This document shows positions 8,918-24,223 of a stretch of DNA of 64,000 bases, piece by piece (the stretch's first letter is position 1; each line of letters starts with the position of its first letter). The stretch is from Nitratidesulfovibrio termitidis HI1 (lineage in GTDB: Bacteria; Desulfobacterota; Desulfovibrionia; Desulfovibrionales; Desulfovibrionaceae): positions 2,551,469 to 2,615,468 of the forward strand of contig NZ_KI632512.1 of assembly GCF_000504305.1 (NCBI RefSeq), in the 5' to 3' direction. The position numbers and the translations under genes are program-made. The notes under the pieces are model-generated. The model was not told where the DNA came from, ran no database searches, and was given only the letters and a program-made list of their open reading frames with translations.

Positions 8918-8932
8918 TGGCACAACCGTTGC
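8918..8932 (+). promoter_or_regulatory. sigma-54 promoter for the TSUP operon
   Basis: TGGCACAACCGTTGC matches the -24/-12 consensus TGGCACR-N4-TTGC at every defined position, with correct spacing, and is followed by T. Transcription would start near 8944, about 82 bases before the ATG at 9026. This predicts an RpoN-dependent operon needing an NtrC-type activator. Confidence 0.8.
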
Positions 8933-9025
8933 TAACCCCGGGGTGTCCCACTGTGCCGCAAGGGGTGCACGGGGCGGAGGCTGGGTAGAGGGTATGCATC
9001 ACGCATCGCGTTTCACGGAGGAACC

Positions 9026-10273
9026 ATGAGCTTTCCAAGACAAGTCTTCGAATTCCTGAAGGCGAGTTCCATCGCCCACGCACAGTGGGATATCGAGGTC
9101 TCCACGTCCATCATCAAGAACCGGAAGAAGCTGCTCTTCCTCGGCATCCTGCTGCTGCCGATCCTGATGTTCAGCTTTGCCGAAGCGGGTTCCATGCTGG
9201 GCAGCAAGACCGCCTACGCACCCGCGTTCTACTCCACCAAGATATTCCTGGTGTCCATCGCGGTGGGCCTGGCTGCCGGCCTGATCACCGGCTGCATCGG
9301 CGCGGGCGGCGGCTTCATCATCACCCCGGCGCTCATGGCTGCGGGGGTCAAGGGCATCCTGGCCGTGGGCACCGACCTGTTCCACATCTTCGCCAAGGCC
9401 ATCATGGGCACCACGGTGCACAAGAAGCTGGGCAACGTGTCGGTCAAGCTGGCCATCGCCTTTCTGGTGGGGTCCGGCGCGGGCACGTTTGTCGGCGGGG
9501 CCATCAACAAGGGCCTGTACAACACCGACCCCCTGCTGTCCGAAATGTTCATCAGCTCCATCTACGCGGTGCTGCTGGGCTTTCTGGGCTTCTACGCCCT
9601 GTTCGACTACCTGAAGGCCAGCAAGTCCGGCGGCGGCGGTGACGCCCACGGCGGCAGCAGCGGCGCCACGGGCCTGTCCGTCAAGTTGCAGGCCATGAAC
9701 GTGCCCCCCATGATCACCTTCGACGAAGACCTCGTGCCCGGCGGCCGTCGCATCTCCGGCTGGATCGTTGCCGCAGGCGGCATGGTGGTGGGCATCCTGG
9801 CGGCCATCATGGGCGTGGGCGGCGGCTTCGTCACCTTCCCCATGTTCGTGTACATCTTCGGCGTGTCGTCCATGACCACCGTGGGTACCGACATCCTGCA
9901 GATCATCTTCACCGCCGGTCTCGGCGCCATCGCCCAGTACGCCATCTACGGCTACGTGTTCTACACCCTGGCCATGGGCATGCTGATCGGTTCGCTCCTG
10001 GGCATCCAGGTGGGCGCGCTGACCACCAAGGTGGTCAAGGGCATCCACATCCGCGGCTTCTACGCCATGTCGATCATCGCGGGCTTCATCAACCGCGTGG
10101 CCACCCTGCCCAAGAAGATGGTGGAACTGGAAATGATCTCCATGCCCAAGGAACTGGTGAACAACATCGAATTCGTGGGCAACATCGTGTTCTGGGTGGT
10201 GGTTGCCATCTTTGGCGCCTGGGTGTTCGGCAAGTTCTTCGCCAACATCGGCAAGCTGAGAGCGGAGGCGTAA
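9026..10273 (+). CDS. TSUP (TauE/SafE) family anion transporter
   Basis: 415 residues, integral membrane. After a soluble N-terminus of about 35 residues and one membrane helix (38-55), two homologous blocks carry the family signature of Gly-rich helices: Gly-Cys-Ile-Gly-Ala-Gly-Gly-Gly-Phe-Ile-Ile-Thr-Pro (about 90-102) and Gly-Val-Gly-Gly-Gly-Phe-Val-Thr-Phe-Pro (about 267-276). Each is followed by Val-Gly-Thr-Asp, diagnostic for TauE/SafE proteins, which move sulfite, sulfoacetate or other sulfur anions. In a sulfate reducer, sulfate or sulfite traffic is plausible but unproven. GGAGG lies before the ATG. It is coupled (1-base gap) to the gene at 10275 and driven by the sigma-54 promoter at 8918. 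Confidence 0.88.
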   Translation: MSFPRQVFEFLKASSIAHAQWDIEVSTSIIKNRKKLLFLGILLLPILMFSFAEAGSMLGSKTAYAPAFYSTKIFLVSIAVGLAAGLITGCIGAGGGFIITPALMAAGVKGILAVGTDLFHIFAKAIMGTTVHKKLGNVSVKLAIAFLVGSGAGTFVGGAINKGLYNTDPLLSEMFISSIYAVLLGFLGFYALFDYLKASKSGGGGDAHGGSSGATGLSVKLQAMNVPPMITFDEDLVPGGRRISGWIVAAGGMVVGILAAIMGVGGGFVTFPMFVYIFGVSSMTTVGTDILQIIFTAGLGAIAQYAIYGYVFYTLAMGMLIGSLLGIQVGALTTKVVKGIHIRGFYAMSIIAGFINRVATLPKKMVELEMISMPKELVNNIEFVGNIVFWVVVAIFGAWVFGKFFANIGKLRAEA

Positions 10274-10274
10274 C

Positions 10275-10994
10275 ATGCTTATCCACAGCAAGAGCAGTTT
10301 CACGAAGGGCCTGCTGCTCATGGGTTCCTTCTGCGCGGTCTTCTTCTTGATCTTCATGCCGCTCTTTCCCGGTGACGGCGGCAAGGCCCTGACCGGCCTG
10401 GAATACTCGGATGACCTGTTCAACAAGCTGTCCAAGGGCTCGTCCTACTTCATTCCCGAGGCCGCAGCGCGCGTCGAGCCCCTGAAGGGCAAGGTTGTCG
10501 AGGTAGCCTACACCTCCAAGAAGGCCGCCGACGCCGCCAAGGTGTTTGCCGCCGTGGGCGTGACCGCCACCGCCGAAGGCAACACCCTGAAGGTGCAGGG
10601 CGACCTGGGTGCGCTGCTGGCCGCCGCCGTGGTCGATTCCGACGCCATGTACAAGAACGACGGCGCGTCCGTCTCCGCACGCTACGCGGGCATGGATCAC
10701 ATGACGGTCATGGAAGCCTGGTGGGAAGGCCTGAACCCCATGATCAAGGCGTTGCAGAAGAACAAGATGGTGGGCGAAGCCAGCGCCGTCGACACCGTGC
10801 TGAAGCGCGCCGTGGAAACCGGCTACAACTACTACGGCATCCCGGCCGCCAAGGTCATGGACAAGATGGGCGTGATGATCGGCCTGCTGGTCTTCTACGT
10901 GGTGTATACCATGTGGTACGGCTTCGCCATCTTCGAACTGTTCGACGGCATCGGCCTGACCATGAAGAAGTCCAAGATCAAGCAGGAAGCCTAG
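10275..10994 (+). CDS. membrane-anchored partner of the TSUP transporter, unknown
   Basis: 239 residues. One membrane helix at each end (about 9-29 and 199-221) frames a domain of about 170 residues, probably periplasmic, with Ala-rich alternating segments and no recognised catalytic motif. It starts one base after the transporter stop, and its GGAGG lies within the end of that gene, so translation is probably coupled and the protein is likely an accessory subunit. I recognise no named family. The Met-Trp-Tyr-Gly-Phe stretch in the last helix and the short basic C-terminus fit a cytoplasmic tail. Confidence 0.75.
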   Translation: MLIHSKSSFTKGLLLMGSFCAVFFLIFMPLFPGDGGKALTGLEYSDDLFNKLSKGSSYFIPEAAARVEPLKGKVVEVAYTSKKAADAAKVFAAVGVTATAEGNTLKVQGDLGALLAAAVVDSDAMYKNDGASVSARYAGMDHMTVMEAWWEGLNPMIKALQKNKMVGEASAVDTVLKRAVETGYNYYGIPAAKVMDKMGVMIGLLVFYVVYTMWYGFAIFELFDGIGLTMKKSKIKQEA

Positions 10995-11088: not shown

Positions 11089-11131
11089 TTCCCTTTTCCG
11101 GGTGGCCCGCACAACCTTCGCCCGCACTCCC

Positions 11132-11181
11132 TGTCGTACGACACGTCCACCTGTTGCGCCATTGGCGCGTTGTGCTATGGT
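11132..11181 (+). promoter_or_regulatory. palindrome and promoter upstream of sodB
   Basis: A perfect 12-base palindrome TGTCGTACGACA (11132-11143) is followed by TTGCGC (11154-11159), 16 bases, and TATGGT (11176-11181), a plausible sigma-70 promoter. An operator just upstream of -35 would fit an activator or redox regulator. The gene starts 176 bases further on, so a long leader is implied. Confidence 0.4.
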
Positions 11182-11357
11182 GACGGTAATCGCCCGCATC
11201 CCCGGCGCTGGCCGGGCTCTCCGCTCTCCCTACGGCACCTTGCGGGCTTCGGCATCCGGTATCCACGGGGCCCTCACGCGCCCCGTCCCGCCGCACCGCC
11301 CCGCGTCACATTCCGGGATACCCGGCGCGGCCCACCTACATCCGCAAGGAGAACGCC

Positions 11358-12074
11358 ATGCCGTCCAGCTTCACCCGCCGCTGTTTCATGTCCCTGTGCG
11401 CCTCGGCCACCCTGGTTGCCGCCGGTTCCCGCCTGCTGGGCCCCACCGTGGCCCACGCCGCCGATGCCCCCGACGCCTTCCCCATGCCGCCGCTGCCCTA
11501 CCCCGAAAACGGGCTGGAACCCGCCATCAGCGCCCGCACCATCTCGTTCCATTACGGCAAGCACACGGCCGCCTACTACGGCAACCTGAACAAGGCCGTG
11601 GCAGGCACCCCCATGGCCAGCATGAAACTGGAAGAGGTGTTCAAATCCGTGGCGGGCGATCCGGCCAAGGCCGGGCTGTTCAACAACGCCGCCCAGTCCT
11701 GGAACCACACCTTCTACTGGGCAGGCATGAAGCCCGGCGGCGGCGGCAAGCCCCCGGCCAAGGTTGCCGACGCCCTGTCCGCCGCCTTCGGCTCCGTGGA
11801 CGCCTGCGTCACCCAGCTTTCCGACGCCGCCAAAACCCAGTTCGCCAGCGGCTGGGCCTGGCTGGTCAAGGGCCGCGAAGGCGGCAAGGATGTGCTGAAG
11901 GTGCTGAAGACCGGCAACGCCGAAAACCCCATCACCCAAGGCTATACCCCCATCCTCACCATCGACGTGTGGGAGCATGCCTACTACCTGGACTACCAGA
12001 ACAAGCGCCCTGATTACGTCCAGGCCTTCTTCGACAAGCTGGTGAACTGGGACGAAGTGGCCAAGCGGTTGTAA
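11358..12074 (+). CDS. sodB: exported iron superoxide dismutase
   Basis: 238 residues. A twin-arginine-type signal (Thr-Arg-Arg-Cys-Phe-Met, residues 6-11, then a hydrophobic run to Ala-His-Ala about 34) sends it folded to the periplasm. The mature part is a Fe/Mn-SOD: Phe-His65-Tyr-Gly-Lys-His, Trp-Asn-His117-Thr-Phe-Tyr-Trp, and Asp203-Val-Trp-Glu-His207 give the four metal ligands. The Gly-Gly-Gly-Gly loop after Met-Lys-Pro favours the iron form. Periplasmic Fe-SOD is known in D. vulgaris, where it protects periplasmic metalloenzymes during oxygen exposure. AAGGAG precedes the ATG. Confidence 0.95.
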   Translation: MPSSFTRRCFMSLCASATLVAAGSRLLGPTVAHAADAPDAFPMPPLPYPENGLEPAISARTISFHYGKHTAAYYGNLNKAVAGTPMASMKLEEVFKSVAGDPAKAGLFNNAAQSWNHTFYWAGMKPGGGGKPPAKVADALSAAFGSVDACVTQLSDAAKTQFASGWAWLVKGREGGKDVLKVLKTGNAENPITQGYTPILTIDVWEHAYYLDYQNKRPDYVQAFFDKLVNWDEVAKRL

Positions 12075-12109
12075 GTGATCGGCTGTTCCAAGATTTTTTA
12101 AGAATGAAT

Positions 12110-12145
12110 CGGGGAGGGGACCTTTTAAAAAAGGCTCCCTCCCCG
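12110..12145 (+). terminator. terminator-like palindromic element after sodB
   Basis: A stem CGGGGAGGG / CCCTCCCCG encloses an inner CCTTTT/AAAAGG pairing. It begins 36 bases after the sodB stop. The same style of element (G/C-rich outer arms, CCTTTT-AAAAGG core) recurs at 12336 and 15719. Confidence 0.7.
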
Positions 12146-12335
12146 AACCCCGCTCTGCTGTCGTCATCCGTAACACTCACGCGTTGCACTCGCTTAACGG
12201 CTGACGCTCCCCCCCAAACTTTTTATCGGGGGGATTGTTATAAGCGCGCCGCCGCAACGAAGCCTATGCCCTGTCGTCATCCTCCGACTTCGTCTGCAAT
12301 ACCCACCCAATTGAAAAGTTTTGGAAGATAGGGGT

Positions 12336-12375
12336 CCGGGGAAAGAAACCTTTTTCAAAAGGTTTCTTTCCCCGG
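12336..12375 (-). terminator. perfect 19-bp hairpin downstream of PEP-synthase-like gene
   Basis: CCGGGGAAAGAAACCTTTT is followed by a two-base spacer TC and its exact reverse complement. It ends 37 bases beyond the stop of the minus-strand gene at 12412. With its T/A core it could stop transcription from either side. The remainder of the 12075-12411 gap is non-coding. Confidence 0.7.
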
Positions 12376-12411
12376 TTATTCCCAGTTCAATCTCTTTAAA
12401 AAATCAGATGA

Positions 12412-15219
12412 CTACCCGGCGACAGGGGCGATCCTGGCGAGGTCGGCGGCAATGCGGTCACGGATGGGGCCGAACACGCGTTCGTTGTGGGCCACCATAT
12501 CGATCTGGCGGGTATGGATGAGCAGGTAGCCCACGCCGCGCACCAGGGTGAGGATGCGGTCCTTGGGCAGTCCTTCGAGGGAGGCGAACAGGGCGTCGTC
12601 CTTGACGTCGGCGCGGAAGCCGCGTGCTTCCAGCACTTCGCCCACGAACCGGGCACGCAGGGTGCGGCGGTCGGCGCTGGCGGCGCCGCCCTTGAACTGG
12701 AAGGTCACGTAGTTCTCGTGCGGGTTGTCGGTGGCCATGGCTTCCACGGTGCAGAAGTGGTAGCCGAAGCGCGCCTGAAGGTTGCAGTAGTCGCGCGAGA
12801 TCATGAGAAAGTTGCGATTGGCCAGGGTGGTGGCGGCAGTGGGTTCCAGGTCCGGATTCACGGTGGATTCCAGCATGACGGACAGGAACCCGCGCGCGTC
12901 GGTAGCAGGCGGCCCGGCCCAGGGCACGGCGGTCATGCCATCCCACAGGGCCAGCATGGGCGCGGAAGCGATGTCGGCCAGGTCTACCACGGGGCCGGGC
13001 ACGGGCTTGCGGAAGCCGCCGTCGATGTCCAGCAGCCAGTATTGCAGCTTGGTGCCATTGACCCGCAGCTGCTTGCCCAACCGCTGGGTGCCGGAGCCGG
13101 AGGAACCGGCGGGATCGGGCGCGCCGAACAGCACCTCCACGGACTTCTCGTGGCAGAAGCGGGTGATGTCGTGCAGGGTGCGGCAGTGAGCGGGGGCAAA
13201 CTGCGGCGATTCCGGGTCCAGCAGATGCAGCGGCAGCACCAGCCGCGCGGCTTCGGCCAGCGCGGTGTGCACCGGGCTGCCCTCCATCAGGTTGCGACGC
13301 GGGGCGTGACCCAGAAGGTCTTCGATGCGACCGGGATGCACGCGGCGGTTATCCGCATCCACGGTGACGATGCCCGCCTGCTCCAAAAGCTCTGCGGCGC
13401 GGGGCAAACCAAACAGGGCGGGCACGCCGTACTCGCGGGCCACGCTGGCCAGATGCCCGGCGGCCCCGCCCGCCTCTGCCACCACGGCGGACGCGCGGGA
13501 CAGCAACGGCGCCCAGCGCGGCAGGGCGCGCTCGATGACCAGCACGCCACCATCAGGGAAGGACAGCAGGTCCATGTCCTTGCGCACCACGTGGGCAAGG
13601 CCCGCGCCCGCGCCAGGGCTGACCGGGGTGCCGCCCAGCAGCAACACGGGCGGACCGGATTCGCCGCAGTTGTAGCCGCCCGGCAGAGGGCCGGATTCTG
13701 CGGCGGCATCATCGCCGGATCGGGTTGCTTCGATAACATCCGTTGCCGCCGCGCCCGCACCGTCCGCGCCATCATCCCCGGCCACTGGCGAACATTCGCC
13801 CTCGGGCAATTCGTCGTGACGCGCCTCGCGCAGGGGGCGGCTTTGCAGGATGGTCAGCACGCCTTCGGGGCACACGGCCCATTCGATGTCCTGCGGTTCG
13901 CCGTAGAACACCTCGAACCCTGCGGCCAGCGCGGCGATTTCCAGGGCGCGGGCATCGTCGATGCACGGGGCGTCCACCATGTCCGACGGCATGTCCTCCA
14001 GCCGCACCCCCTCGATGGGGTCGCGCACGAAGCGCTGGGGCTTGGCCGCTATCTGGCGCTGCGCCACTGCCATGGGCACCTCGCGCGAAACCACGAACAC
14101 GTCGGGGCTGAAGCTGCCGTCCACCACTGCCTTGGGCAGGCCGGGCACGGCGTTGATGACCACGGTGTTGTCGCGCAGGTCGAGCGGGTTGCGGCTGTAG
14201 GCCACACCGCCCGCCACCGCATCCACCATGACCAGACAGCCCACGCACATGGGCACGTCCTCGTCGGGGATGCCGCGCGCCAGGCGGTAGGTCATGGCGG
14301 TGACGCCGTACTTGCTGGCCACGATGTCCTTGAAGGTGTCCAGCACGTCTTCGGGCGGCACGTTGAGTTCAGAGCGGTACTGCCCGGCGAAGGAGGCGTC
14401 CAGCGAATCCTCGCCCACGGCGCTGGAGCGCACGGCAAAACGCACCTCCGCCCCGATGCAGGCGACCGCGGAAGAATGGCCCGGATGCGGCTCCGTCCGT
14501 GCATCATGCGGGGGCCCCGCCAGGCGCTCCACCTGCGCGGTGATGGCCTCGGCCAGGTCGTCGGGCACGGGCGCTGCCAGAATGAGTTGCTGGATGGACG
14601 CAGACAGCGCGAACACCTCGTCCAGCCGGGTGGCGTCCGCCGCCTGCACCCGCCGGTCGATCTCTTCCTGCAACCCGCCTGCCTCCATGAAACGCTGGTA
14701 GCCCGTGGCCGTGACCACGAAGCCGTCGGGCACGGTGATGCCGAGGCTGCGGCGGATTTCGCCAAGGTTGGCCATCTTGCCGCCGGTCTGGTCGGCCAGG
14801 TCCACGCCGGTTTCGGCAATGGGCAGCACCAGCGGCCCGCCGCCCGCACGCACATGGGGGGCCACCACGGCCTCGATGCCCGCGCGGATTTCGTCGAACT
14901 TCGTTTCCAGCTCGGGCCAGCGGTCATCGGACAACGTGTTGAGGTGGCGCACGATCTGGAACACGCTGGCGCACGCACGGGTGCAGGCCCCGCGCACGTA
15001 GGTCATGCCGAAGGGACGCACCCCGCGCAGGGCCTCTTCCATGTCGGCCATGATTTCAAGGGCGCTTTTGTTGGCGGACAGCAGCAGCCGGAACCGCGAG
15101 CAGCGTTCGCGGTACAGCGCGCGCAGCCGTTCGGTTTCGGCGTCGGGCACGCCGCCGTCCTGCGCAGAGGGGTCCTGCCGCCGGAACAGCGCGCCGAGTG
15201 TATGGAAAAAGCCGCCCAT
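12412..15219 (-). CDS. PEP-synthase-like protein with novel C-terminal domain (intact copy)
   Basis: 935 residues. An N-terminal helical region (1-145) is followed by a pyruvate/ATP-grasp domain as in PEP synthase: Gly-Gly-Lys-x-Ala-Asn-Leu-Gly-Glu (about 168), Val-Arg264-Ser-Ser-Ala-Val-Gly-Glu-Asp, Ala-Ser-Phe-Ala-Gly-Gln, and Gln-Asp-Ile-Glu-Trp-Ala with Gln-Ser-Arg-Pro. A phosphohistidine swivel domain follows with His589 in Ala-Gly-His-Leu-Ala-Ser, where PEP synthase has its catalytic His. The usual PEP-binding barrel is absent; about 300 C-terminal residues form a different, well-conserved domain shared with the paralogue at 17942. It is last in a minus-strand group with a kinase (15882) and receiver (15333). 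True PEP synthesis is doubtful; signalling phosphotransfer is an inference. Confidence 0.8.
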   Translation of the reverse strand: MGGFFHTLGALFRRQDPSAQDGGVPDAETERLRALYRERCSRFRLLLSANKSALEIMADMEEALRGVRPFGMTYVRGACTRACASVFQIVRHLNTLSDDRWPELETKFDEIRAGIEAVVAPHVRAGGGPLVLPIAETGVDLADQTGGKMANLGEIRRSLGITVPDGFVVTATGYQRFMEAGGLQEEIDRRVQAADATRLDEVFALSASIQQLILAAPVPDDLAEAITAQVERLAGPPHDARTEPHPGHSSAVACIGAEVRFAVRSSAVGEDSLDASFAGQYRSELNVPPEDVLDTFKDIVASKYGVTAMTYRLARGIPDEDVPMCVGCLVMVDAVAGGVAYSRNPLDLRDNTVVINAVPGLPKAVVDGSFSPDVFVVSREVPMAVAQRQIAAKPQRFVRDPIEGVRLEDMPSDMVDAPCIDDARALEIAALAAGFEVFYGEPQDIEWAVCPEGVLTILQSRPLREARHDELPEGECSPVAGDDGADGAGAAATDVIEATRSGDDAAAESGPLPGGYNCGESGPPVLLLGGTPVSPGAGAGLAHVVRKDMDLLSFPDGGVLVIERALPRWAPLLSRASAVVAEAGGAAGHLASVAREYGVPALFGLPRAAELLEQAGIVTVDADNRRVHPGRIEDLLGHAPRRNLMEGSPVHTALAEAARLVLPLHLLDPESPQFAPAHCRTLHDITRFCHEKSVEVLFGAPDPAGSSGSGTQRLGKQLRVNGTKLQYWLLDIDGGFRKPVPGPVVDLADIASAPMLALWDGMTAVPWAGPPATDARGFLSVMLESTVNPDLEPTAATTLANRNFLMISRDYCNLQARFGYHFCTVEAMATDNPHENYVTFQFKGGAASADRRTLRARFVGEVLEARGFRADVKDDALFASLEGLPKDRILTLVRGVGYLLIHTRQIDMVAHNERVFGPIRDRIAADLARIAPVAG

Positions 15220-15332
15220 GTCGCTTCCGCCGAGGTCTGCTTCGTGAAATCCGCCGTCAGCCGATAGGGCCGCCGGTCTTGCTGCCTGCCGCTTGCCCGT
15301 TGCCTGTTCTCCGCCCTGCCGCGCGCCGCTGC

Positions 15333-15692
15333 TCAGGCGTGACGCACGGCCTCGCCCAACTTGAAGATCAGCTCGTTGATGGCCACGGGTTTCAGCATGT
15401 AGTCGAACGCGCCCAGCTCCATGCCGGTCAGGGCCGCGCCCAGGCTGGCATGCCCGGTCAGCAGCACCACCGGCACCTCAGGCCGCAGGGCCTTGATGCG
15501 CCGCAAGGTCTCCAGACCGTCCATGCCCGGCATCTTCACGTCCAGCACCACGGCGTCGTAAACGCCCTGCTCCACGCGCGCCACCGCGTCCGTGCCGTTG
15601 TCCACCGTGTCCACCTCCATGCCGCGCCGTTCCAGCCGCTTGTGCATGAGGTCCAGGAATTCCGTCTCGTCATCCACGATGAGAATCTTCAT
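15333..15692 (-). CDS. single-domain CheY-like response regulator
   Basis: 119 residues, a receiver domain only. Acidic pair Asp7-Asp8, phospho-acceptor Asp51 in Val-Leu-Asp-Val-Lys-Met-Pro-Gly-Met-Asp-Gly, Thr in Leu-Leu-Thr-Gly-His, and Lys-Pro near the end are all present; no output domain. It lies between the histidine kinase at 15882 and the PEP-synthase-like gene at 12412, so it probably relays phosphate from the kinase and may act on the latter by protein contact. AAGGG precedes the ATG at 15692. Upstream in-frame sequence is the palindromic element at 15719, so the short start is preferred. Confidence 0.9.
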   Translation of the reverse strand: MKILIVDDETEFLDLMHKRLERRGMEVDTVDNGTDAVARVEQGVYDAVVLDVKMPGMDGLETLRRIKALRPEVPVVLLTGHASLGAALTGMELGAFDYMLKPVAINELIFKLGEAVRHA

Positions 15693-15718
15693 GTCGTGGC
15701 CCTTTTTCGAAGATGTTC

Positions 15719-15870
15719 GGGGGAAGGGACCCTTTAAAAAGGGTCCCCTTCCCCCGGCCCCCATCCCCCCAAACTTTTCATTCGGGGTGTGGGAGGGGCC
15801 GAGGGCGCCGTGCCCCCTCCATACGGGGGTGCAGGGGGCAAGGCCCACTGCCCGCCGGAGGCGTACAAAA
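15719..15870. repeat. palindromic intergenic element, copy 2
   Basis: It begins with a long hairpin of GGGGGAAGGGACCC against GGGTCCCCTTCCCCC (one bulged base) around a CTTTAAAAAG core. A C-rich stretch, then CATTCGGGG, follow, and it ends with CCCGCCGGAGGCGTACAAAA at 15851-15870. The identical 20-base end occurs at 59721-59740, and the hairpin core resembles those at 12110 and 12336. It lies between the kinase stop and the receiver start on the minus strand, so it may reduce read-through within this group. Confidence 0.75.
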
Positions 15871-15881
15871 AGCAGCAGCCG

Positions 15882-17582
15882 CTACCGCAAGTTGAGCAGG
15901 GTATCCTGCGTGAAGGCGGGTGCTGCGGTGGGCAGGTACACGGTAAAGGTGGCCCCGTTGCCGGGGCTGCTTTCCGCCACGATGCGGCCGCCGAGTTTTT
16001 CCATGATCGAGTAGCAGATGGCGAGGCCAAGGCCGGTGCCTTCGCCTGCCTTCTTGGTGGTGTAGAACGGGTCGAAGATGTGTTCGAGCACGTCGGGGGT
16101 GATGCCGCCGCCGGTATCGGTAACGGCCACGAACACTTCCTGCCCGCCTTCGGTGGCCCCGGTGCGCACGGTAATGGCCCCGCCCTGGCCCACGGCATCG
16201 ATGGCGTTGTCCAGCACGTTCAGGATCACCTGCTGCACCTGCGCGGTGTCGGTGGTGATGGCGGGCAGGTTGGCGTCGAAATCCTTGTGGATGGTGATGG
16301 AACGGTGCAGGGCCTCGCTTTCCAGAAACTTCACGGTCTGCTCGGTCAGCACGTTGAGGGGCACGTCTTCCTGCATGGGTTCCATGCGGCGGCCAAAGCC
16401 CAGCATGCGGTGGGTGATGCCCTTGGCCCGGTCCACGTGCTGCTCGATCTTGGCGGCGGCTTCCTCGATTTCGGCGTGGTGGCCCATGCGGGCGGCGTCC
16501 TCTTCGGACAGCAGGTCGCGGATCCACCCGGCGTTCTCGCGGATGAGCATGAGCGGGTTGTTCACCTCGTGCGCCACCCCGGCGGCCAGTTTGCCGAGGG
16601 CGGCCATCTTGCTGGACTGCATGAGCGAGGCGTCAAGCATGGCCTGCCTGCGGTCGGCCTCGATGACCTTGTCCACGATCACCCGGGTGGTGAAGAAGGT
16701 GCCCAGGCAGATGACCACGGCCCCGCCCAGCAGGAACAGCACCACGATGAGCTGGGTGTGCGCCAGGGGCGAAAGGGGCTCGCGCGGGTCGTCCATGACC
16801 ACCAGCAGCCAGGGCATGTTCTCGAGCCAGGTCATGCCGGTGACCATGGGGCGGCCATCGGTATTGGCGATGGTGTCCACCACCACCCCGCGCTTGGCCT
16901 TGTCGGGCATGGTCATGCGCAGGGCGGGCCGGGTCATGATGGCGCCGTTGTTGCGCGAATCGGATTGCAGGGTGCCGTCTGCGGCCAGCAGGAAGGCGTC
17001 GCTGTTGGTGCCGGAATAGGCACGGTGCAGCATGGTGCTGACGGCGGCGGAATCGATGGTGGCCCGCAGTATCCAGGCCCGACCGTTCTCGCGGCGCATG
17101 ACCGCGATGATGAAGTGCGGAAAACGGCGGAACCCGGTGAACACGTCGCTGACGTACTGACCCTTCAGCATCACCTCGTGGAACCACGGCTCGTCGCGGT
17201 AGTTGGCCGCCTCCAGCGAGTACGGCCCCACGTAGGCCACGTGTTCGCCCTGGTCGTTGATGACCCCGATGTCCACGTAGGAACGGGCGTTGGACTGGAT
17301 GACCCCGAAGATGGCGCCCAACTGGGTGGAATCGGACAACTCGCGAAACGAGTGGGTCCAGGCCAGGCTTTTTATCTGCGAGACCCGCTCGGCCAGAAAG
17401 GTGTCCAGCGCGCGGCGCTTGCTTTCGGTCACCGCCTCGATGCCCGAAACCATGCGCTCGTGGTAGGTCTTGGAAAACTGGAGATGGATGAAGAAGCCCA
17501 GTGCAAACAGCGGCACGAGCGAAAAGGCGAGCATGGCGAGGGTGAGCCTGCGCCGCAGCCTGGTGTATCCGCCAATGTCCAT
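15882..17582 (-). CDS. membrane sensor histidine kinase (NtrB-like)
   Basis: 566 residues. Membrane helix 1 (about 12-32), a large periplasmic sensor region (33-270) resembling a double-Cache fold (Tyr-Val-Asp-Ile-Gly-Val-Ile-Asn, Glu-Pro-Trp-Phe motifs), membrane helix 2 (about 277-297), HisKA with His338 in Ala-His-Glu-Val-Asn-Asn-Pro-Leu, and HATPase with Gly-Gly-Gly-Ile and Gly-Leu-Gly-Leu-Ala. The HEVNNPL box is typical of NtrB/AtoS-type kinases. GGAGG precedes the ATG at 17582. It heads the minus-strand group kinase - receiver - PEP-synthase-like protein and probably senses a small periplasmic ligand. Confidence 0.92.
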   Translation of the reverse strand: MDIGGYTRLRRRLTLAMLAFSLVPLFALGFFIHLQFSKTYHERMVSGIEAVTESKRRALDTFLAERVSQIKSLAWTHSFRELSDSTQLGAIFGVIQSNARSYVDIGVINDQGEHVAYVGPYSLEAANYRDEPWFHEVMLKGQYVSDVFTGFRRFPHFIIAVMRRENGRAWILRATIDSAAVSTMLHRAYSGTNSDAFLLAADGTLQSDSRNNGAIMTRPALRMTMPDKAKRGVVVDTIANTDGRPMVTGMTWLENMPWLLVVMDDPREPLSPLAHTQLIVVLFLLGGAVVICLGTFFTTRVIVDKVIEADRRQAMLDASLMQSSKMAALGKLAAGVAHEVNNPLMLIRENAGWIRDLLSEEDAARMGHHAEIEEAAAKIEQHVDRAKGITHRMLGFGRRMEPMQEDVPLNVLTEQTVKFLESEALHRSITIHKDFDANLPAITTDTAQVQQVILNVLDNAIDAVGQGGAITVRTGATEGGQEVFVAVTDTGGGITPDVLEHIFDPFYTTKKAGEGTGLGLAICYSIMEKLGGRIVAESSPGNGATFTVYLPTAAPAFTQDTLLNLR

Positions 17583-17941
17583 CGTGCCTCCAAAAAACGG
17601 GGCAAGCCTTCGTGGAACGGGCCGCCGGGGCGAGGGGGGCTTGGGAGCGAAGAAAGGGTGCCGCATGCCGCTCGCGGCCACGACCATGGCACACAACCGT
17701 CGCAGATGCGGCACATTCGTTTCATCAGGGATACGCCGGAGCATTTGCCCGGCAATCCTTCTCCCCCTGCGGCGCAGTTGTGAAACACGGACCGCGCGAG
17801 GGACACCCCATGTGCTAGAATTACCCGATCATCCAGCATTTTACAATCGCCGGAAGCCCCCGGGACGGCGAAACAGGGAAACATCCGCTGCGCTGCCCGG
17901 CGGTTTTCGCACCGCCGCCAACGCCGTGCCCGCGACGGGGA
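17583..17941. other. intergenic region between the two signalling modules
   Basis: 359 bases, no gene. It should hold the promoter of the kinase starting at 17582. A less GC-rich patch around 17810-17850 includes, on the minus strand, TTGTAA and TAATTC separated by 17 bases, a weak sigma-70 candidate. No sigma-54 pattern with correct spacing. Confidence 0.3.
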
Positions 17942-20761
17942 TCAGATGGGGGCTGCGGGGTCCACGGCCCGGCGCGGGCGGTCGTCACCCCCGGCCTGAT
18001 CAGCCTCCGCCGACGCTGCCTGATCGGCCTCCTCCAGCAGGCGGCGGCAGTCGGCCAGCATGGCGGCGCGCCGCTCGGCCAGTTGCGGCCCGTCGTTCAT
18101 GATCATGTCCAACTGGCGGGTGTGGATGGTCATGTACCCGGCCACCAGCAGCATGCGCAGTGCGTCCGCCTCGGGCAGGTTTTCGATGCGGGCCGACAGC
18201 GCGTCGCGCCGCACCGTGCAGGCAAAGCCGAATTCGCCCAGCAGCCCGGCCACGAACTCCACCCGGCGCACCCGGCGTTCGATGTTGGCGGCCCCGCCGC
18301 GCAACTGAAAAACCACGTAGTTCTCGGGGGTGCGTTCGCCCACCAACGATTCCACGGCCACGAAGTGGAACCCGAAGCGCGAGTGCAGGCTACAGTAATT
18401 GCGCGAGACCATGAAGTAATTGCGCTCGGTGAAGAACGCGCTCTGCGACGCCGGGTCCAGATGCGGGTTGGCCGTGGCCTCGAACATCACCGACAGAAAG
18501 CCCTTGGCGTCCACCGGCGGCGGCCCCTGCCACGGCACGGCGTTCATGCCGCGCCACAGGGTGCGCATGGGCACGGAGGCTATCCGCGCGATGGGCACCA
18601 GCGGGCCGTTGACCTCGCCGTCGAAGCCGTCGTCCAGGTTGACCACCCAGAACTGCTTGGGCACGTCGCACTGCAACTGCTTGACCCGCTGCGGCGCGTG
18701 GCGCTGCTGCGAGCCGAAGCGGAACATCTCCGCCACGGCCTTTTCATGGCAGAACCGCCCAAGATCATGAAAGGTCTTGCAGTTGGCGGACTTGAAATCG
18801 GGCGAATCCGGGTCCAGGGTCAGGGGCAGCATGTGGTGGGCGGCGGCGTCCAGCGCCTGCAACACCGGGCTGCCGGGCATGAAGTTGCATTCGCGCGGGC
18901 CCGATTCGATGAAGGCCTCGATGCGGCCCGGATAGACCACGCCCACGTCGCCGTGCACGGTGACCACGGCCCCCTGCTCCAGCAGGTCCAGCGGGTTGCC
19001 CTGCCGGAACGGGCCGAACACGGCGGGCTTGCCGAATTCGCGCGCCACGGCGGCCAACTGGCTGGAAACGCGCCCCCGCTCGGCCACCACGGCGGCGGCA
19101 CGGTCCAGCAGCATGCCCCAGTCGGCCAGGTCGCGCGCCACCACCAGCACGGCTCCGTCAGGGAAAGAGCGCACGTCGTCCCGTTCGCGCACGATGTGCA
19201 CCGGCCCGGCCACCACGCCCGGCCCGGCGGTAACCCCGCCGTCCAGCAGGGCCGGGGGCGGGCATTCAAGCTGGGCGGCGTCTTCGGCCTCGGATTCGGC
19301 GTAGCTTTCCGGCAGGTGGGCGCGCGGCGCGGGCAATGGCCGGGCATGCAGCAGCGAGACGGAACCGTCCGGCTCCAGCAGCCAGTCGATCTCCTGGGGC
19401 AGGCCGCAGTGCTCCTCCACGGCCAGGGCCAGTTCGGCAACGGCACGGGCCGCCGCGTCATCAAGGACCGGCGCCGCCGGGCCGGATGCCGCATCGACGC
19501 CGGGGGCGATGCTGCGCAGCCGCACCGAACCGCCCACGCGGCACACGTGGTAGGCGTCCACGTCGTGCGCGCCGTCCTCCACGGCCTCGGACAGGCCACG
19601 CGCGGCGTAGACGTGCACCGAGGTGTCGCGGGCGTGCAGGGGGTTGCCGGTGTAGGCGATGCCCCCGGCCACGGGGGCCTCCACGGCAAAACAGCCCACG
19701 CACACGCAGGTGCCCGCATCGCGCAGGCCCCGGTTGCGGCGGTAGGCGATGGCCTGGGGCGAATACTTCAGGGCCAGGGTGGCGCGCAGGGCGTCCAGCA
19801 CCCGCTGCCGGTCGGATTGCCTGCCGTGCTGGGAGTCGGGGCCGATGCCATCTTCGAACAGGGGAATGGACGGACCCCACAGGGTCATGCCGCCCGCATC
19901 GTCGTCCGTGTTCTCGCCAACGCCCGTCGAACCCTGCGGCCAGACCCGCCCGCGCAGCAACAGGCGCATGTCGCGCCCCTGCGCGCCGGGCCGCGCGGCC
20001 ACCCGCGTGCGCAGGGCGGACAGGGCGTCCATGAGCGCGCCGGCAACCTCGTCCGGCGCCTCCGCCGTCTGGATCAGCCCGACGATGGAGGGCGAAAGGT
20101 CCATCAGATTGTCCGGCCTGATGCCGCCCGAAGCCTGCACTCGCCGCCCGATTTCCTCTTGCAGCCCCTGATGGCGGAACAGCCGCTGGCAGGCGGCGGC
20201 GGTGACGATGAACCCGTCGGGTACCCCGCCACCCGGCACTCCGGATGTCTCAGATTGCGCGGATGTCGCGGAAGTCGCGGAAGTCGCGGGCGCGGCATCA
20301 TCCGCCCCGCGCGGGGCCAACGCCGCACGCAGCCCCCCCAGCCGGGTCAGGGCAGGGTCGGCAAGGTCTGGCTGGGCAAGGTCCGGATGGCCGAACGGCA
20401 GGGCAAGCGGGCCGTCCATGGTGGCCGGGCGGCCATAGACAATGGCCGCCACCTCGGCCTGGATGGCGTCGAAGCGGGCGGAAAGTTCCGGGTAGCGGCC
20501 GGGGGCCAGTTCGTCCAACTGGCGGATGCACTGGAAGACCTGGGTGGTGATGCGGGTGCACAGCGAGCGCACCGTCTGCATGCCGAAGGGATGGACACAG
20601 CACAGGGCCAGTTCCATCTCGGTCATCACTTCCTGCAGCTTGGCCCAGGCGTTGAGCACCAGCTTGAAGCGGTGATACCGCGCCGCGAAGGCCTCTTCGG
20701 CGGCGGCGCGTTCCTCGTCCCGCCGCTTGCGGCGGAAGGGCAGCCAGCAGAACAGACCCAT
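17942..20761 (-). CDS. PEP-synthase-like protein, degenerate paralogue
   Basis: 939 residues, aligned over its whole length with the protein at 12412. The C-terminal domain is strongly conserved (Arg-Phe-Cys-His-Glu-Lys, Gly-Phe-Leu-Ser-Val-Met, Glu-Asn-Tyr-Val, His-Thr-Arg-Gln), but the enzymatic parts are not. The swivel His is replaced by Gln568 (Ser-Ser-Gln-Leu-Ala-Ala), and the Val-Arg-Ser-Ser-Ala...Glu-Asp / Phe-Ala-Gly-Gln region is replaced by unrelated residues around 262-300, although Glu-Ile-Asp-Trp and Ala-Arg-Pro remain. A Ser-Ala-Thr repeat at about 157-165 comes from a 9-bp DNA repeat. It should be catalytically dead as a phosphotransferase and may act as a scaffold or antagonist of the other copy. 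It is co-transcribed with the receiver at 20798. Confidence 0.82.
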   Translation of the reverse strand: MGLFCWLPFRRKRRDEERAAAEEAFAARYHRFKLVLNAWAKLQEVMTEMELALCCVHPFGMQTVRSLCTRITTQVFQCIRQLDELAPGRYPELSARFDAIQAEVAAIVYGRPATMDGPLALPFGHPDLAQPDLADPALTRLGGLRAALAPRGADDAAPATSATSATSAQSETSGVPGGGVPDGFIVTAAACQRLFRHQGLQEEIGRRVQASGGIRPDNLMDLSPSIVGLIQTAEAPDEVAGALMDALSALRTRVAARPGAQGRDMRLLLRGRVWPQGSTGVGENTDDDAGGMTLWGPSIPLFEDGIGPDSQHGRQSDRQRVLDALRATLALKYSPQAIAYRRNRGLRDAGTCVCVGCFAVEAPVAGGIAYTGNPLHARDTSVHVYAARGLSEAVEDGAHDVDAYHVCRVGGSVRLRSIAPGVDAASGPAAPVLDDAAARAVAELALAVEEHCGLPQEIDWLLEPDGSVSLLHARPLPAPRAHLPESYAESEAEDAAQLECPPPALLDGGVTAGPGVVAGPVHIVRERDDVRSFPDGAVLVVARDLADWGMLLDRAAAVVAERGRVSSQLAAVAREFGKPAVFGPFRQGNPLDLLEQGAVVTVHGDVGVVYPGRIEAFIESGPRECNFMPGSPVLQALDAAAHHMLPLTLDPDSPDFKSANCKTFHDLGRFCHEKAVAEMFRFGSQQRHAPQRVKQLQCDVPKQFWVVNLDDGFDGEVNGPLVPIARIASVPMRTLWRGMNAVPWQGPPPVDAKGFLSVMFEATANPHLDPASQSAFFTERNYFMVSRNYCSLHSRFGFHFVAVESLVGERTPENYVVFQLRGGAANIERRVRRVEFVAGLLGEFGFACTVRRDALSARIENLPEADALRMLLVAGYMTIHTRQLDMIMNDGPQLAERRAAMLADCRRLLEEADQAASAEADQAGGDDRPRRAVDPAAPI

Positions 20762-20797
20762 GGCGGTTTTCCGGATGGAAGCAGGTTTCGGACGCCT

Positions 20798-21274
20798 TTA
20801 GGAACCCTTGCGCGCCGCCGCCCTACGATCAAGCTGGCACTGGGTGTAGGCGTCCTCGATCTTGAACAGCAACTCGTCGAAATCGGTTGGCTTCATCAGG
20901 TAGCCGAAGGCGCCAAGGCGCATGCCCTCCACCGCCACCTCCATGTCGGCGTGGCCGGAAAGCATGATCACCTCCACCCCCGGGAATTCGGTGCGGATGC
21001 GCTCCAACGCGCGCATGCCGCCCATGCCCGGCATCTTCACGTCCATGACCACCACGTCGGCTCCCTGGCGGGCCAGGTGTTCCAACGCTTCTTCTCCGCT
21101 GGCCGCGCGCGCCGCCGGGAAACCGCGTTTGCCAAGGCGCAGGGCCAGCATCTCGGTGCTTTCCGGCTCGTCGTCCACCAGCAGGACGCGCGGCAATGGC
21201 TTGCCGGAGTCGGGCCCTGCACCGCCGGAGTGGGCGCCGCCGGAATGGGCATCTGATGTCGGCGTGTCGGTCAT
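20798..21274 (-). CDS. CheY-like response regulator paired with degenerate PEP-synthase-like protein
   Basis: 158 residues. A Gly/Ser/His-rich lead (1-25), then a receiver with Asp34-Asp35, phospho-acceptor Asp78 in Val-Met-Asp-Val-Lys-Met-Pro-Gly-Met, Ser in Leu-Ser-Gly-His, and Lys-Pro. No output domain. It resembles the receiver at 15333 (Gly-His-Ala, Leu-Gly-Ala-Phe-x-Tyr-Leu/Met-Lys-Pro), so receiver and PEP-synthase-like gene were duplicated together. GGGAGG precedes the ATG at 21274, and the next gene starts 36 bases after its stop. Its kinase is not adjacent on the same strand; the divergent kinase at 21654 is the nearest candidate. Confidence 0.88.
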   Translation of the reverse strand: MTDTPTSDAHSGGAHSGGAGPDSGKPLPRVLLVDDEPESTEMLALRLGKRGFPAARAASGEEALEHLARQGADVVVMDVKMPGMGGMRALERIRTEFPGVEVIMLSGHADMEVAVEGMRLGAFGYLMKPTDFDELLFKIEDAYTQCQLDRRAAARKGS

Positions 21275-21491
21275 GGGGCCTCCCGGCGTCTGGATGGCGC
21301 GCCCGTGCCCCACCCCGGGAGAGGGAGATGTGGAGACAGGTCCGCCCTGCCTTCCTACCGCTCTTTGGGATGGGCCACAAGGTGGCTGGATGCACGACAG
21401 TGCCGCTCTCGCCACGATGCTGCGCAGGGGGCTGACGGGATACGCCGGGCGATGTCCCGCGCGTCCGCGTCATTCGGACCTGCTGGGCAGG

Positions 21492-21536
21492 CCGATTCAG
21501 CCGATTCAGCCGGTTCAGCCGGTTCAGCCGGAGCAG
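21492..21536. repeat. 9-bp tandem repeat in a divergent intergenic region
   Basis: Five 9-base units: CCGATTCAG twice, CCGGTTCAG twice, CCGGAGCAG once. They lie in the 379-base gap (21275-21653) between the divergent receiver and kinase genes. Nothing else is recognisable in that gap apart from the Shine-Dalgarno of the receiver. Confidence 0.9.
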
Positions 21537-21653
21537 CCGGGCAGGCCGGGCCACCCGCTCCTCTCGTTGTTCCCGCGCGTGAATTGGGCTAGAACCACCC
21601 TGACCCACTGACATGCTGGCACCGCAACCTCACATTCGGCCCACGGATTCGCC

Positions 21654-22772
21654 ATGGTGAACTGGAGACTGCCCCGGGTGGTGCGCTTTCGCCCCAGCCT
21701 GCGCGTACGCATCGGCCTGCTGCTGGCCGCGCTGGCGGCCACGTCCATGGCCGCCGCCGCGCTGCCGCTGCTCATGGCCAGCGGACGGCTGTCCCTGCCC
21801 ACGCCCTTCGGCACCTGGACGGCGGACCCGGCCACCGACGCCCTGGGGCTGATGCTGGTGGTTCTGTTTCTGGCAGGGCTGCTGGCCGTGGTCGTGTTCC
21901 GCCAGGTGCTGGGCCCCATCCGCCGCCTGGCGCTGGAAGGGTTGGAGGATGCCGACGCCTACGGCAACGAGGTGGAGGTGCTGGACCGCCGCCTGCGCCA
22001 CCTGCTGGACACCATGCACCGCACCCAGGTGCAGTTGGAAGAAAGCCACGAAACCCTGCGCCAGACCGAAAAACTGGCCCTGGTGGGCAAGCTGGCCGCC
22101 GGGGTGGCCCATTCCATCCGCAATCCGCTGACGTCGGTGAAGCTGCGCCTGTTCGCGCTGGAACGCAGCCTGAAGCTGGGGCCGGACCAGAAGGAACAGC
22201 AGGAAGACTTCGAGGTCATCGCCGCAGAAATCCGCCACCTGGACGCCATCGTCACCAATTTTCTGGAATTCTCGCGCCGCCCGCGCCTGCGCATGCAGCC
22301 GGTCAGCCCGTCCGACGTGGTGGACATGACCCTGCAACTGCTCAAACACCGCCTGGAATCGTTCAACGTGGCGGTTGCGGTACACCGGACAGAACGCCTG
22401 CCCCTGGTGGACGGCGATGCCGAACAGCTGAAGGAAGCGCTGGTCAACCTCATCCTGAACGCCTGCGAAGCCATGGGCTACAACGGCACGCTGGACATCA
22501 CGGAAGAAAAGGGCATCATCAATCCGTTGGGCCGGGCCGTGGTCATCCGCATTGCGGACAGCGGCCCCGGCGTGCCCCAGCATATCCGCGACGAAGTGTT
22601 CCAGCCGTTCTTCAGCACCAAGGAAGAAGGCACCGGCCTTGGCCTGCCCATCGCCCGGCGTATCTTCGAGGAGCATGGCGGCTGGCTGCACCTGCATTCG
22701 GCGCACGGCAAGGGAGCCACCTTCGTCATCGTGCTGCCCGCCCGCAAGGACGACTCATGGCTAAGATCCTGA
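21654..22772 (+). CDS. membrane sensor histidine kinase
   Basis: 372 residues. Two membrane helices (about 17-40 and 62-82) with a very short loop, a HAMP-like linker, HisKA with His153 in Ala-His-Ser-Ile-Arg-Asn-Pro-Leu, and HATPase with Asn-Ala-Cys-Glu-Ala, Asp-Ser-Gly-Pro-Gly and Gly-Thr-Gly-Leu-Gly-Leu boxes. With only a tiny periplasmic loop it probably senses membrane state or a cytoplasmic signal. Its last 16 bases overlap the NtrC-type regulator at 22757, so the two form a translationally coupled pair. It is divergent from the receiver/PEP-synthase-like module at 20798. Confidence 0.92.
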   Translation: MVNWRLPRVVRFRPSLRVRIGLLLAALAATSMAAAALPLLMASGRLSLPTPFGTWTADPATDALGLMLVVLFLAGLLAVVVFRQVLGPIRRLALEGLEDADAYGNEVEVLDRRLRHLLDTMHRTQVQLEESHETLRQTEKLALVGKLAAGVAHSIRNPLTSVKLRLFALERSLKLGPDQKEQQEDFEVIAAEIRHLDAIVTNFLEFSRRPRLRMQPVSPSDVVDMTLQLLKHRLESFNVAVAVHRTERLPLVDGDAEQLKEALVNLILNACEAMGYNGTLDITEEKGIINPLGRAVVIRIADSGPGVPQHIRDEVFQPFFSTKEEGTGLGLPIARRIFEEHGGWLHLHSAHGKGATFVIVLPARKDDSWLRS

Positions 22773-24223
22773 TAGTCGACGACGAACTGCAACTGCGCCA
22801 AAGCTTCCAGCGTCTGCTGGCCGGGGAAGGCCACGACGTGCGCGCCGCCTCCACCGGCGAGCAGGGCATCAAGCTGGTGCGCGAAGAGTTGCCCGAACTG
22901 GTGATCATGGACGTGCGCATGCCCGGCATGGACGGCCTGACCGCCCTGCGTGCCATCCGTGAGATAGACGCCCGCCTGCCGGTGGTCATCATGACCGCCT
23001 ATTCCACCACCGAGACCGCCATCGAGGCCACCAAGCTGGGGGCCTTCGACTACATCCTGAAGCCCTTCGAAATCCCGGACATTCTCGCGCTCATCGAGCA
23101 GGCCGTGGAGGCGGGCCGCCGCATGCGCGCCCGCGTGGACATGGTGGCCGACGGCGAGGACGGCGACGGCGCCGGGCAGGAACCGCTGGGCGAAGCCCTG
23201 GTGGGCACCAGCCGGGCCATGCACCAGGTGTACAAGGCCATCGGCCGGGCCGCGCCCACCGACGCCCTGGTGCTGGTGCGGGGCGAATCGGGCACCGGCA
23301 AGGAACTGGTGGCCCGCGCCGTGTACCAGCACAGCCTGCGCGGCGAAAAGCCGTTTCTGGTCATCAACTGCGTGGCCATTCCGGATACGCTGCTGGAAAG
23401 CGAGCTGTTCGGCTACGAGAAGGGGGCCTTCACCGGGGCCACCAACCGCCGGGTGGGCAAGATAGAACAGGCGGGCGGCGGCACCGTGTTCCTGGACGAA
23501 ATAGGCGACATGCCCCTGGGCATTCAGGCCAAGCTGCTGCGCCTGTTGCAGGAAAAGCAGATCGAACGGCTGGGCGGCAGGCAGCCCATCCCCGTGGACG
23601 TGCGCATCATCGCCGCCACCAACACCGACCTGGAAGCCGCCGTGGCCGACGGGCGCTTCCGCGAGGACCTGTACTACCGGCTGAAGGTGGTCACCCTGTG
23701 GCTGCCCCCCCTGCGCGAACGTAGCGAGGACATCCCCCCGCTGGCCCGGTACTTTCTGGCCCGCTTCTCGCGCGAGATGGACATGCAGAACCCCGGCATC
23801 ACCCCGGAGGCCCTGGCCTATCTGGAAGCACAGCCGTGGCCGGGCAACGTGCGCGAACTGGGCAACACCGTGCACAAGGCGCTGGTGTTCAGCCGGGGCG
23901 GGCCGCTGGGCGAACCGGACCTGAAGCAGGCGCTTGAAGCCAGCCGGGGCGTGCGCCCCGGCAGCGAAGGCCCGACCTGCGACCTTTCGCTGGCCGCCGA
24001 CCAGACCATGCAGGAGCTCATCCGCCGCACCCTCAGCGAAAGCGACGGCGACAACGTGTTCGATTCGCTGATGGACCACGTGGGGCGGCTGGTGGTGCGC
24101 GAGGCGCTGCACCTTACCGGGGGCAACCGCACCCGCGCCGCGCGCCTGCTGGGGCTTTCGCGCCCCACCCTGCTGGCCAAGATCGAAAAATACGGCCTGC
24201 GCATAGAGACGCAGGTTTCCTGA
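22757..24223 (+). CDS. sigma-54-dependent NtrC-family response regulator
   Basis: 488 residues in the classic order: receiver (1-120, phospho-Asp in Ile-Met-Asp-Val-Arg-Met-Pro), AAA+ domain with Walker A Gly-Glu-Ser-Gly-Thr-Gly-Lys-Glu, the sigma-54 contact loop Gly-Ala-Phe-Thr-Gly-Ala, Walker B Phe-Leu-Asp-Glu-Ile-Gly-Asp, and a C-terminal Fis-type helix-turn-helix (Asn-Arg-Thr-Arg-Ala-Ala-Arg-Leu-Leu-Gly). It activates RpoN promoters when phosphorylated, presumably by the overlapping kinase gene. Targets are unknown; the sigma-54 promoter at 8918 is the only clear one in this window. Confidence 0.95.
   Translation: MAKILIVDDELQLRQSFQRLLAGEGHDVRAASTGEQGIKLVREELPELVIMDVRMPGMDGLTALRAIREIDARLPVVIMTAYSTTETAIEATKLGAFDYILKPFEIPDILALIEQAVEAGRRMRARVDMVADGEDGDGAGQEPLGEALVGTSRAMHQVYKAIGRAAPTDALVLVRGESGTGKELVARAVYQHSLRGEKPFLVINCVAIPDTLLESELFGYEKGAFTGATNRRVGKIEQAGGGTVFLDEIGDMPLGIQAKLLRLLQEKQIERLGGRQPIPVDVRIIAATNTDLEAAVADGRFREDLYYRLKVVTLWLPPLRERSEDIPPLARYFLARFSREMDMQNPGITPEALAYLEAQPWPGNVRELGNTVHKALVFSRGGPLGEPDLKQALEASRGVRPGSEGPTCDLSLAADQTMQELIRRTLSESDGDNVFDSLMDHVGRLVVREALHLTGGNRTRAARLLGLSRPTLLAKIEKYGLRIETQVS

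Follow-up and report, generated by a model that had tools for sequence, protein, structure and literature searches.

A conserved gene set of lone receivers, a histidine kinase and PEP-synthase-like proteins beside a TauE-family permease in Nitratidesulfovibrio termitidis HI1

Introduction

The closest described relative of the locus treated here is the 'nitrate cluster' of Desulfovibrio (Dde_0597-0605 and DVU0251-DVU0245), which combines a TauE permease, a kinase, a CheY-like receiver and a protein with pyruvate phosphate dikinase (PPDK) and mobile domains in one cluster (PMC4001038). For Desulfovibrio vulgaris it is reported there that insertion mutants in DVU0246, DVU0247, DVU0250 and DVU0251 grow equally with and without 100 mM nitrate, that the DVU0245 insertion mutant has no nitrate resistance and that none of the cluster insertions helped against nitrite. 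The genes which give resistance on insertion include those of TauE, of the receiver and of the protein similar to phosphoenolpyruvate (PEP) synthase; the explanation offered by the authors is a leaky thiosulfate transporter, and they call for further study. We compare with this cluster a stretch of 64,000 nucleotides (the window) from the sulfate reducer Nitratidesulfovibrio termitidis HI1, that is, C1:2551469-2615468 of a 4.26-Mb one-contig genome, in which two PEP-synthase-like proteins, here called A and B, are encoded together with a kinase and two lone receivers next to a TauE permease.

Two other reports touch on such genes. The sigma-54 regulons of D. vulgaris include nine operons of TSUP/PSE permeases (PMC4641369), which are of the TauE/TSUP type, have no substrate assigned and stand under sigma-54 activators; the main text of that paper does not mention phosphoenolpyruvate, PEP synthase or ppsA. 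Receivers fused to pyruvate phosphate dikinase were reported for 'Bacteroides-like' and three Heimdallarchaeota members (PMC5847659). The fusion is one chain, whereas the genes are neighbours in the window, and both couple a receiver to a PPDK-type protein. The consulted parts of PMC4001038 and PMC5847659 give no mechanism for the PEP-synthase-like protein. The nitrate cluster, the sigma-54 control of such permeases and the receiver-PPDK fusions are already in print, and the opinion in a preliminary description of the window, made from the sequence alone, that no system of this form had been described was too strong, the same make-up having been described genetically in 2014 (PMC4001038). In full-text searches of an open-licence library we found neither the combination of TauE, phosphoenolpyruvate synthase and histidine kinase nor that of TauE, response regulator and Desulfovibrio, nor a description of the protein family as a whole or of its pseudoenzyme twin; the new domain of this family has no name by which it could be searched there.

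Lone receivers are common and their outputs are often obscure. Here the candidate output is an ATP-using protein outside transcription, and lone receiver, kinase, dikinase-like protein and anion permease recur together across the phylum. Of further interest are the new C-terminal domain, whose histidine-rich motif is invariant, and the natural twins that lack the active site and lend themselves to dissecting the mechanism; the locus also bears on why disruption of the PEP-synthase-like gene makes Desulfovibrio nitrate resistant, a question which the consulted parts of PMC4001038 leave open.

A five-gene run facing a TauE permease

Five genes form one run on the minus strand from 21415 to 12412 in the order receiver, protein B, histidine kinase, receiver, protein A. 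Open reading frames, Pfam matches and the family alignment delineate protein A (12412..15219, minus strand, 935 aa) and protein B (17942..20761, minus strand, 939 aa, a predicted pseudoenzyme), which are paralogues with 39% identity. Each of the two is preceded by a lone receiver, and one kinase is common to both pairs. The receiver of A is a single-domain CheY-like protein (15333..15692 on the minus strand, counted from its ATG; Response_reg 5.7e-32); a longer frame up to 15848 begins with GTG and reads through a palindrome. In the receiver of B (20798..21415, minus strand; Response_reg 2.5e-29) the receiver domain comprises residues 77-186 of the longest frame, and the start is uncertain. 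The sensor histidine kinase (15882..17744, minus strand) has HisKA and HATPase_c domains by Pfam and a dCache-like N-terminus that scores 36.5 bits, under the Pfam cut-off of 45; its true start may be an inner ATG near 17582. The hallmarks of a two-component system are present, namely the acidic pair, the phosphoacceptor Asp and the Lys of the receivers as well as the HisKA and HATPase_c domains of the kinase. The palindrome, GGGACCCTTTTTAAAGGGTCCC, lies between kinase and receiver at 15726-15747. It occurs at 11 places of the genome if up to two mismatches are allowed, and the copy at C1:2859509, within locus L009 (see below), is likewise located between a kinase and a receiver gene.

The plus strand carries, facing protein A, the genes for a TauE/SafE-family permease (9026..10273; PF01925 with 123.4 bits vs a cut-off of 32.6) and for a membrane partner protein (10275..10994), followed at 11358-12074, between this pair and protein A, by the gene for an iron/manganese superoxide dismutase. 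The partner is a homologue of a protein of about 229 aa which in many relatives is encoded between the TauE and the PEP-synthase-like gene; a Pfam search with it gave no match. Positions 9026-21415 unite PEP-synthase-like protein, lone receiver, kinase and TauE permease, the core of a cluster of the nitrate type. On the other side a membrane histidine kinase (21654..22772, plus strand; HisKA and HATPase_c) is encoded divergently from the run, and its end is overlapped by the gene for an NtrC-type regulator (22757..24223, plus strand) with receiver, sigma-54 AAA and Fis helix-turn-helix domains.

The preliminary description had seen two paralogous pairs of a receiver and a protein of about 937 residues, two kinases and an NtrC-type regulator, and all of these are borne out by the frames and by Pfam. 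It had read the pairs as twin modules, the first with its own kinase. Two independent modules are ruled out: there is one run with a single shared kinase, and its order is found again at locus L012 and in similar form at L037 and L131. Moreover, the set had been placed within 12412..24223; the genes named lie there, but the set extends to the TauE permease and its partner, and it is this permease which is the strongest lead to function.

The window departs from the nitrate cluster in its kinase and its membrane partner, in the presence of the NtrC pair and in having two PEP-synthase-like genes, one of them for a pseudoenzyme. None of the ten products scanned between 9026 and 24223 is a DUF169 protein, a phosphonate-binding (PtxB-like) protein or a tyrosine phosphatase. 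All three are present at L009, which together with L010 holds the two further family copies of this genome. The order at L009, DUF169, TauE, membrane protein, phosphonate-binding protein, kinase, receiver, PEP-synthase-like protein and phosphatase, is that of Dde_0597-0605 and DVU0251-DVU0245 (PMC4001038). The region DVU0539-0545 was also considered as a counterpart and ruled out; universal stress proteins are encoded there instead. At L010 the family gene is paired with a sigma-54 activator carrying the GAFSEA motif, which is given for the DVU0151 activator (PMC4641369). Divergent from this activator is a TauE gene, which is immediately followed by the gene for a DUF4881 protein (L010 15710-16315). 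In total 11 TauE genes were counted in this genome, and at all three loci with PEP-synthase-like genes one of them is found within 5 kb of such a gene.

The PEP-synthase-like proteins and their C-terminal domain

A and B share with PEP synthase and pyruvate phosphate dikinase an ATP-grasp domain followed by a swivelling phosphohistidine domain, both detected by Pfam. Protein A consists of an N-terminal domain (residues ~1-125), the ATP-grasp domain PPDK_N (144-467), the mobile phosphohistidine domain (554-624, with His589) and a C-terminal domain (~641-935). PPDK_N scores 277.8 bits in A and 95.8 bits in B, the mobile domain 58 bits in A, and beyond these domains the sole Pfam match in either protein is a sub-threshold DUF2576 in B. 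A comparison by hhalign with eight PEP synthases of the same phylum gave 100%. The clear match covers residues 126 to ~645, thus the ATP-grasp and mobile domains, and the aligned stretch continues with little similarity to residue 777; the N-terminal ~125 residues fall outside. His589 aligns with the catalytic-site His of PEP synthases.

Residue conservation was counted in 113 of the 118 full family genes, the five left out coding for 780 aa or less; the alignments A3 and A4 comprise 80 and 64 of 81 chosen diverse members. His589 is kept in 108 members, and the ATP-site residues of A (K148, R264, S265, S266, E270, D271, Q459 and R461) are each found in at least 108. R264, G279, H683, D684, R687, H690, H821, G844, G845 and R855 are kept in all 113 members and C679 in 112; of these conserved residues C679, H683, D684, R687, H690 and H821 are in the C-terminal domain of A. 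Two residues before the His stands Ala in 64 and Thr in 38 members. The PEP synthase regulatory protein acts on a Thr two residues before the catalytic His.

The PEP/pyruvate barrel of PEP synthases was not found. Pfam gave no match of PEP-utilizers_C in A or B, and hhalign of the C-terminal ~290 residues (with 79 relatives) against 12 PEP synthase barrels returned a probability of 0.2%. When the C-terminal domains of 80 members were searched in Pfam, 11 families were hit, each in one member only and with a best E of 0.015; nothing of weight was found among PDB sequences (best E 0.12) or in NCBIfam and PHROGs. The PEP synthase model TIGR01418 of NCBIfam scores 273.6 bits with A and 130 bits with B, below its curated cut-off of 739.75 in both cases. 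Judged by sequence, the barrel is replaced by a domain of ~290 residues for which Pfam and the PDB sequences gave no match of weight, a further N-terminal domain is added, and A and B are not PEP synthases. This genome has a separate 1228-aa frame, which among the matches listed matches PEP synthase positions 162-554; frames of that length in the genomes G001, G082 and G042 also match ~530-784 among the matches listed. Related ATP-grasp and His-domain parts are known from rifampin phosphotransferase and the prodigiosin ligases PigC and RedH, here sub-threshold NCBIfam matches only. In these enzymes the His domain is C-terminal, whereas in A and B it is central and the new domain follows.

Protein B has Gln in place of the catalytic His. 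The VRSSA loop and the GGK motif are missing from it, K148, S265, S266, D271 and Q459 are replaced, and the residues of the C-terminal domain are kept. The His is absent from only five of the 113 members, B and one protein each at L012, L030, L037 and L131. In all five the VRSSA loop and the GGK region are gone as well and a common alternative stretch, LLLRGR(V/I)WP, is present; a single clade (support 1.0) unites them with a 378-aa protein of L016. In the window, L012, L037 and L131 the genes follow each other as dead copy, kinase, receiver and active copy, and at L030 the contig edge comes after the kinase. Its residues mark B as a pseudoenzyme of a conserved type.

No ATP-grasp or mobile domain is detectable in the L016 protein (6751-7887). 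The same was observed for a 390-aa protein at L168 (7574-8746), which adjoins TauE and partner genes. In the two short proteins the C-terminal domain is present and the N-domain matches weakly, with 10 and 21 bits; H683 and R687 are lost in both, D684 and H690 also in the L168 protein. The N- and C-terminal parts can therefore exist without the ATP chemistry. An 1833-aa frame of L130 was considered as a natural fusion and rejected. No domain shows up in its first ~1000 residues, whose coding stretch overlaps genes for a kinase and a receiver on the opposite strand, and we therefore take them as a read-in frame ahead of the true start.

Conservation of the gene neighbourhood

Neighbouring genes at family loci were identified by domain matches on all open reading frames. 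Of the 118 full family genes 99, 87 and 67 have the required flank of 1, 3 and 6 kb, and so do 20, 20 and 19 of 20 controls. The latter are ordinary PEP synthases, 13 of them over the family cut-off and 7 longer ones of ~1200 aa, and their genomes are among the same 40 as below. Within 3 kb a lone receiver is found at 69 of 87 family genes and at none of the 20 controls. The corresponding numbers are 70/87 against 2/20 for any receiver, 48/87 against 2/20 for a kinase, 40/87 against 0/20 for TauE and 37/87 against 0/20 for the partner gene. Within 6 kb any receiver (64/67), a kinase (57/67) and TauE (48/67) are common at family genes and rarer or absent at controls (5/19, 3/19 and 0/19).

A less redundant count takes one gene per locus, that is, per fetched genome. 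The 40 loci were hand-picked from the matches listed, mostly as the best-scoring match of a genus or family, and 35 and 31 were left after the flank rule. Within 3 kb this count gives a lone receiver at 32/35, a kinase at 19/35 and TauE at 21/35 (controls: lone receiver 0/20, TauE 0/20), and receiver, kinase and TauE all occur within 6 kb at 18/31. The Fisher p values for lone receiver (3.5e-12), kinase (0.0013) and TauE (4.7e-6) are guides only, since the loci share ancestry and also supplied the matches for building the profiles. The pairing of receiver, kinase and PEP-synthase-like protein is conserved beyond chance.

A phylogeny of 196 lone receivers places both receivers of the window, judged from the printed tip counts, within a 38-tip clade with a support of 0.92, and 37 of these 38 receivers adjoin a PEP-synthase-like protein or TauE. 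The phosphoacceptor Asp is kept in 193 of the 196 and the active-site residues in nearly all.

The family of the C-terminal domain was detected in 135 of 149 genomes of the class; in a sample of 395 genomes from the phylum it is present in 146, which belong to 83 of 246 genera. The partner gene is present in 98 of the 395 genomes. Of these partner-bearing genomes 94 also have the C-terminal domain family, versus 52 of the 297 others. Matches labelled Acidobacteria, Bacteroidetes and Zixiibacteriota are from metagenome-assembled genomes and may be misplaced. At L164 (6903-11031) the TauE-partner pair occurs twice in tandem; this genome is 82% complete and the C-terminal domain family was not found there.

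Proposed function and alternatives

We tentatively suggest that the gene set of the window is a two-component-controlled accessory module of the TauE-family anion permease. Kinase 15882 would sense a ligand, probably via its cache-like outer domain, and phosphorylate the lone receivers. These might dock on the PEP-synthase-like proteins and not on DNA. Protein A would use ATP to phosphorylate its own His589, and the swivelling domain could then hand the phosphoryl over to a group at the new C-terminal domain, where the invariant H683-D684-x-x-R687-x-x-H690 is a candidate for the acceptor site. Protein B may be a regulatory or structural partner that retains the C-terminal domain. The output would be the activity of the permease formed by TauE and its partner, with an effect on transport and not on expression. 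Expression of the permease is probably set by the NtrC/kinase pair 21654/22757 through a candidate sigma-54 promoter site, TGGCACAACCGTTGCT (8918..8933, plus strand). This site was found by motif search as an exact match 92 bases upstream of the TauE gene and is the sole exact match in the window, where about one is expected by chance.

We propose that receiver and large protein jointly set the permease activity because the lone receiver has no output domain and the large protein is its most constant neighbour, and because the published nitrate phenotype fits a permease. In D. vulgaris only DVU0245 follows DVU0246, and therefore the phenotype of DVU0246 is unlikely to be polar on the permease. 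The same gene set in many related bacteria probably represents an unexplained way of switching the uptake of an anion.

Several observations weigh against this proposal. H683-D684-R687-H690 is retained in all five full-length pseudoenzymes, B included, although the phosphohistidine is missing, and the motif may therefore not be the phosphoryl acceptor. The nitrate phenotype belongs to a paralogue of the window genes. In D. vulgaris the role of the receiver cannot depend on the kinase DVU0248, which is listed there as a pseudogene; pooled and single-mutant results disagree for DVU0250; and Dde_0605, the DVU0245 homologue of D. alaskensis, also shows high fitness, so that the polarity argument is valid for D. 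vulgaris only (PMC4001038). The insertion in the receiver gene may have had a polar effect on DVU0246. The window genes for TauE and its partner converge with that of protein A, with which they share no operon. Among the 67 family genes with a flank of 6 kb, three have no receiver (L040, L109 and L126), 10 no kinase and 19 no TauE, and the receiver, kinase and TauE profiles were built from matches at family loci and may favour detection there. Of the 49 receivers beside a PEP-synthase-like protein only 16 belong to the 38-tip clade, and of the 39 beside TauE only 21. Finally, a sigma-54 activator gene directly adjoins the family gene at L010, L018, L021 (second gene) and L042-L045 and also at L047-L049, L051 and L059, which suits a role in gene control.

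Such a role is the alternative that survives best, and in our view it is rather unlikely. The PEP-synthase-like proteins would report the ATP or ligand state to sigma-54 activators and kinases, and the permease would be a regulated target only. Besides the direct pairing with activators of the one-component type at some loci, the published D. vulgaris regulons with their nine TSUP/PSE operons and a GAFSEA activator like that of L010 (PMC4641369) are in line with this view, as is the exact site upstream of the window TauE gene. Sigma-54-like sites with at most one mismatch were found upstream of TauE in 5/65 cases (0.22 expected), upstream of SENS-type kinases in 10/56 loci (0.22 expected), upstream of the family gene in 6/109 (0.42 expected) and upstream of other genes in 5/277 (1.0 expected), where the expectations come from mononucleotide shuffling and several sites from near-identical relatives. 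However, 69/87 family genes have a lone receiver within 3 kb and only 17/87 a sigma-54 activator, and lone receivers have no DNA-binding part.

It is doubtful whether the transported anion or its product is itself the acceptor, in a kind of group translocation at the expense of ATP in which phosphorylation traps what has entered. Proteins with the domain order of PEP synthase and an exchanged substrate domain, beside an anion permease time and again, would suit such a reaction, and rifampin phosphotransferase and the prodigiosin ligases, which have another acceptor part, are among the sub-threshold NCBIfam matches. Trapping does not explain why a pseudoenzyme is conserved as a type beside the active copy; furthermore, nitrate, the anion of the published phenotype, has no obvious phosphorylated form, and no acceptor is known. 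Improbable, too, is a mechanism in the manner of the phosphotransferase system, with an ATP-charged phosphohistidine protein, switched by the receiver, that directly energises or opens TauE as a secondary anion permease and with the conserved inactive twin as control subunit.

The preliminary description had considered that phosphate of a two-component relay may gate a phosphohistidine protein or be exchanged with it, here between the Asp of the receiver and the histidine of the PEP-synthase-like protein, with a link to the pyruvate/PEP or ATP state. The conservation of His589 in 108/113 members and of the receiver Asp in 193/196 would permit such an exchange, and A has the histidine for it. 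The exchange is impossible for B, which lacks the catalytic His and the ATP site and yet keeps its receiver; altogether five members with receiver and kinase nearby have neither the His nor the ATP-site residues. As a general mechanism the exchange is thus not supported, and we consider it quite improbable. The link to pyruvate/PEP is not supported either, neither A nor B having a detectable PEP-utilizers_C domain. What stands from that description is the recurrent pairing of receiver, kinase and PEP-synthase-like protein; of the two results that would have spoken against it, a pairing not conserved in other genomes and an ordinary PEP synthase independent of the receiver, neither was obtained. 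That A and B are ordinary PEP synthases which lie near signalling genes by chance is hardly credible in spite of the PPDK_N (278 bits) and mobile domain (58 bits) scores, given the lack of a PEP/pyruvate domain match, the score far below the PEP synthase cut-off, the separate 1228-aa frame in the same genome and a neighbourhood conserved in comparison with the controls.

Further observations

Outside the gene set the window encodes two 514-aa proteins (30889-32433 and 33446-34990) with near-identical beginnings (MMEFIGPAIGHLFEPLNILLM) and a smaller protein beside each, which looks like a tandem duplication.

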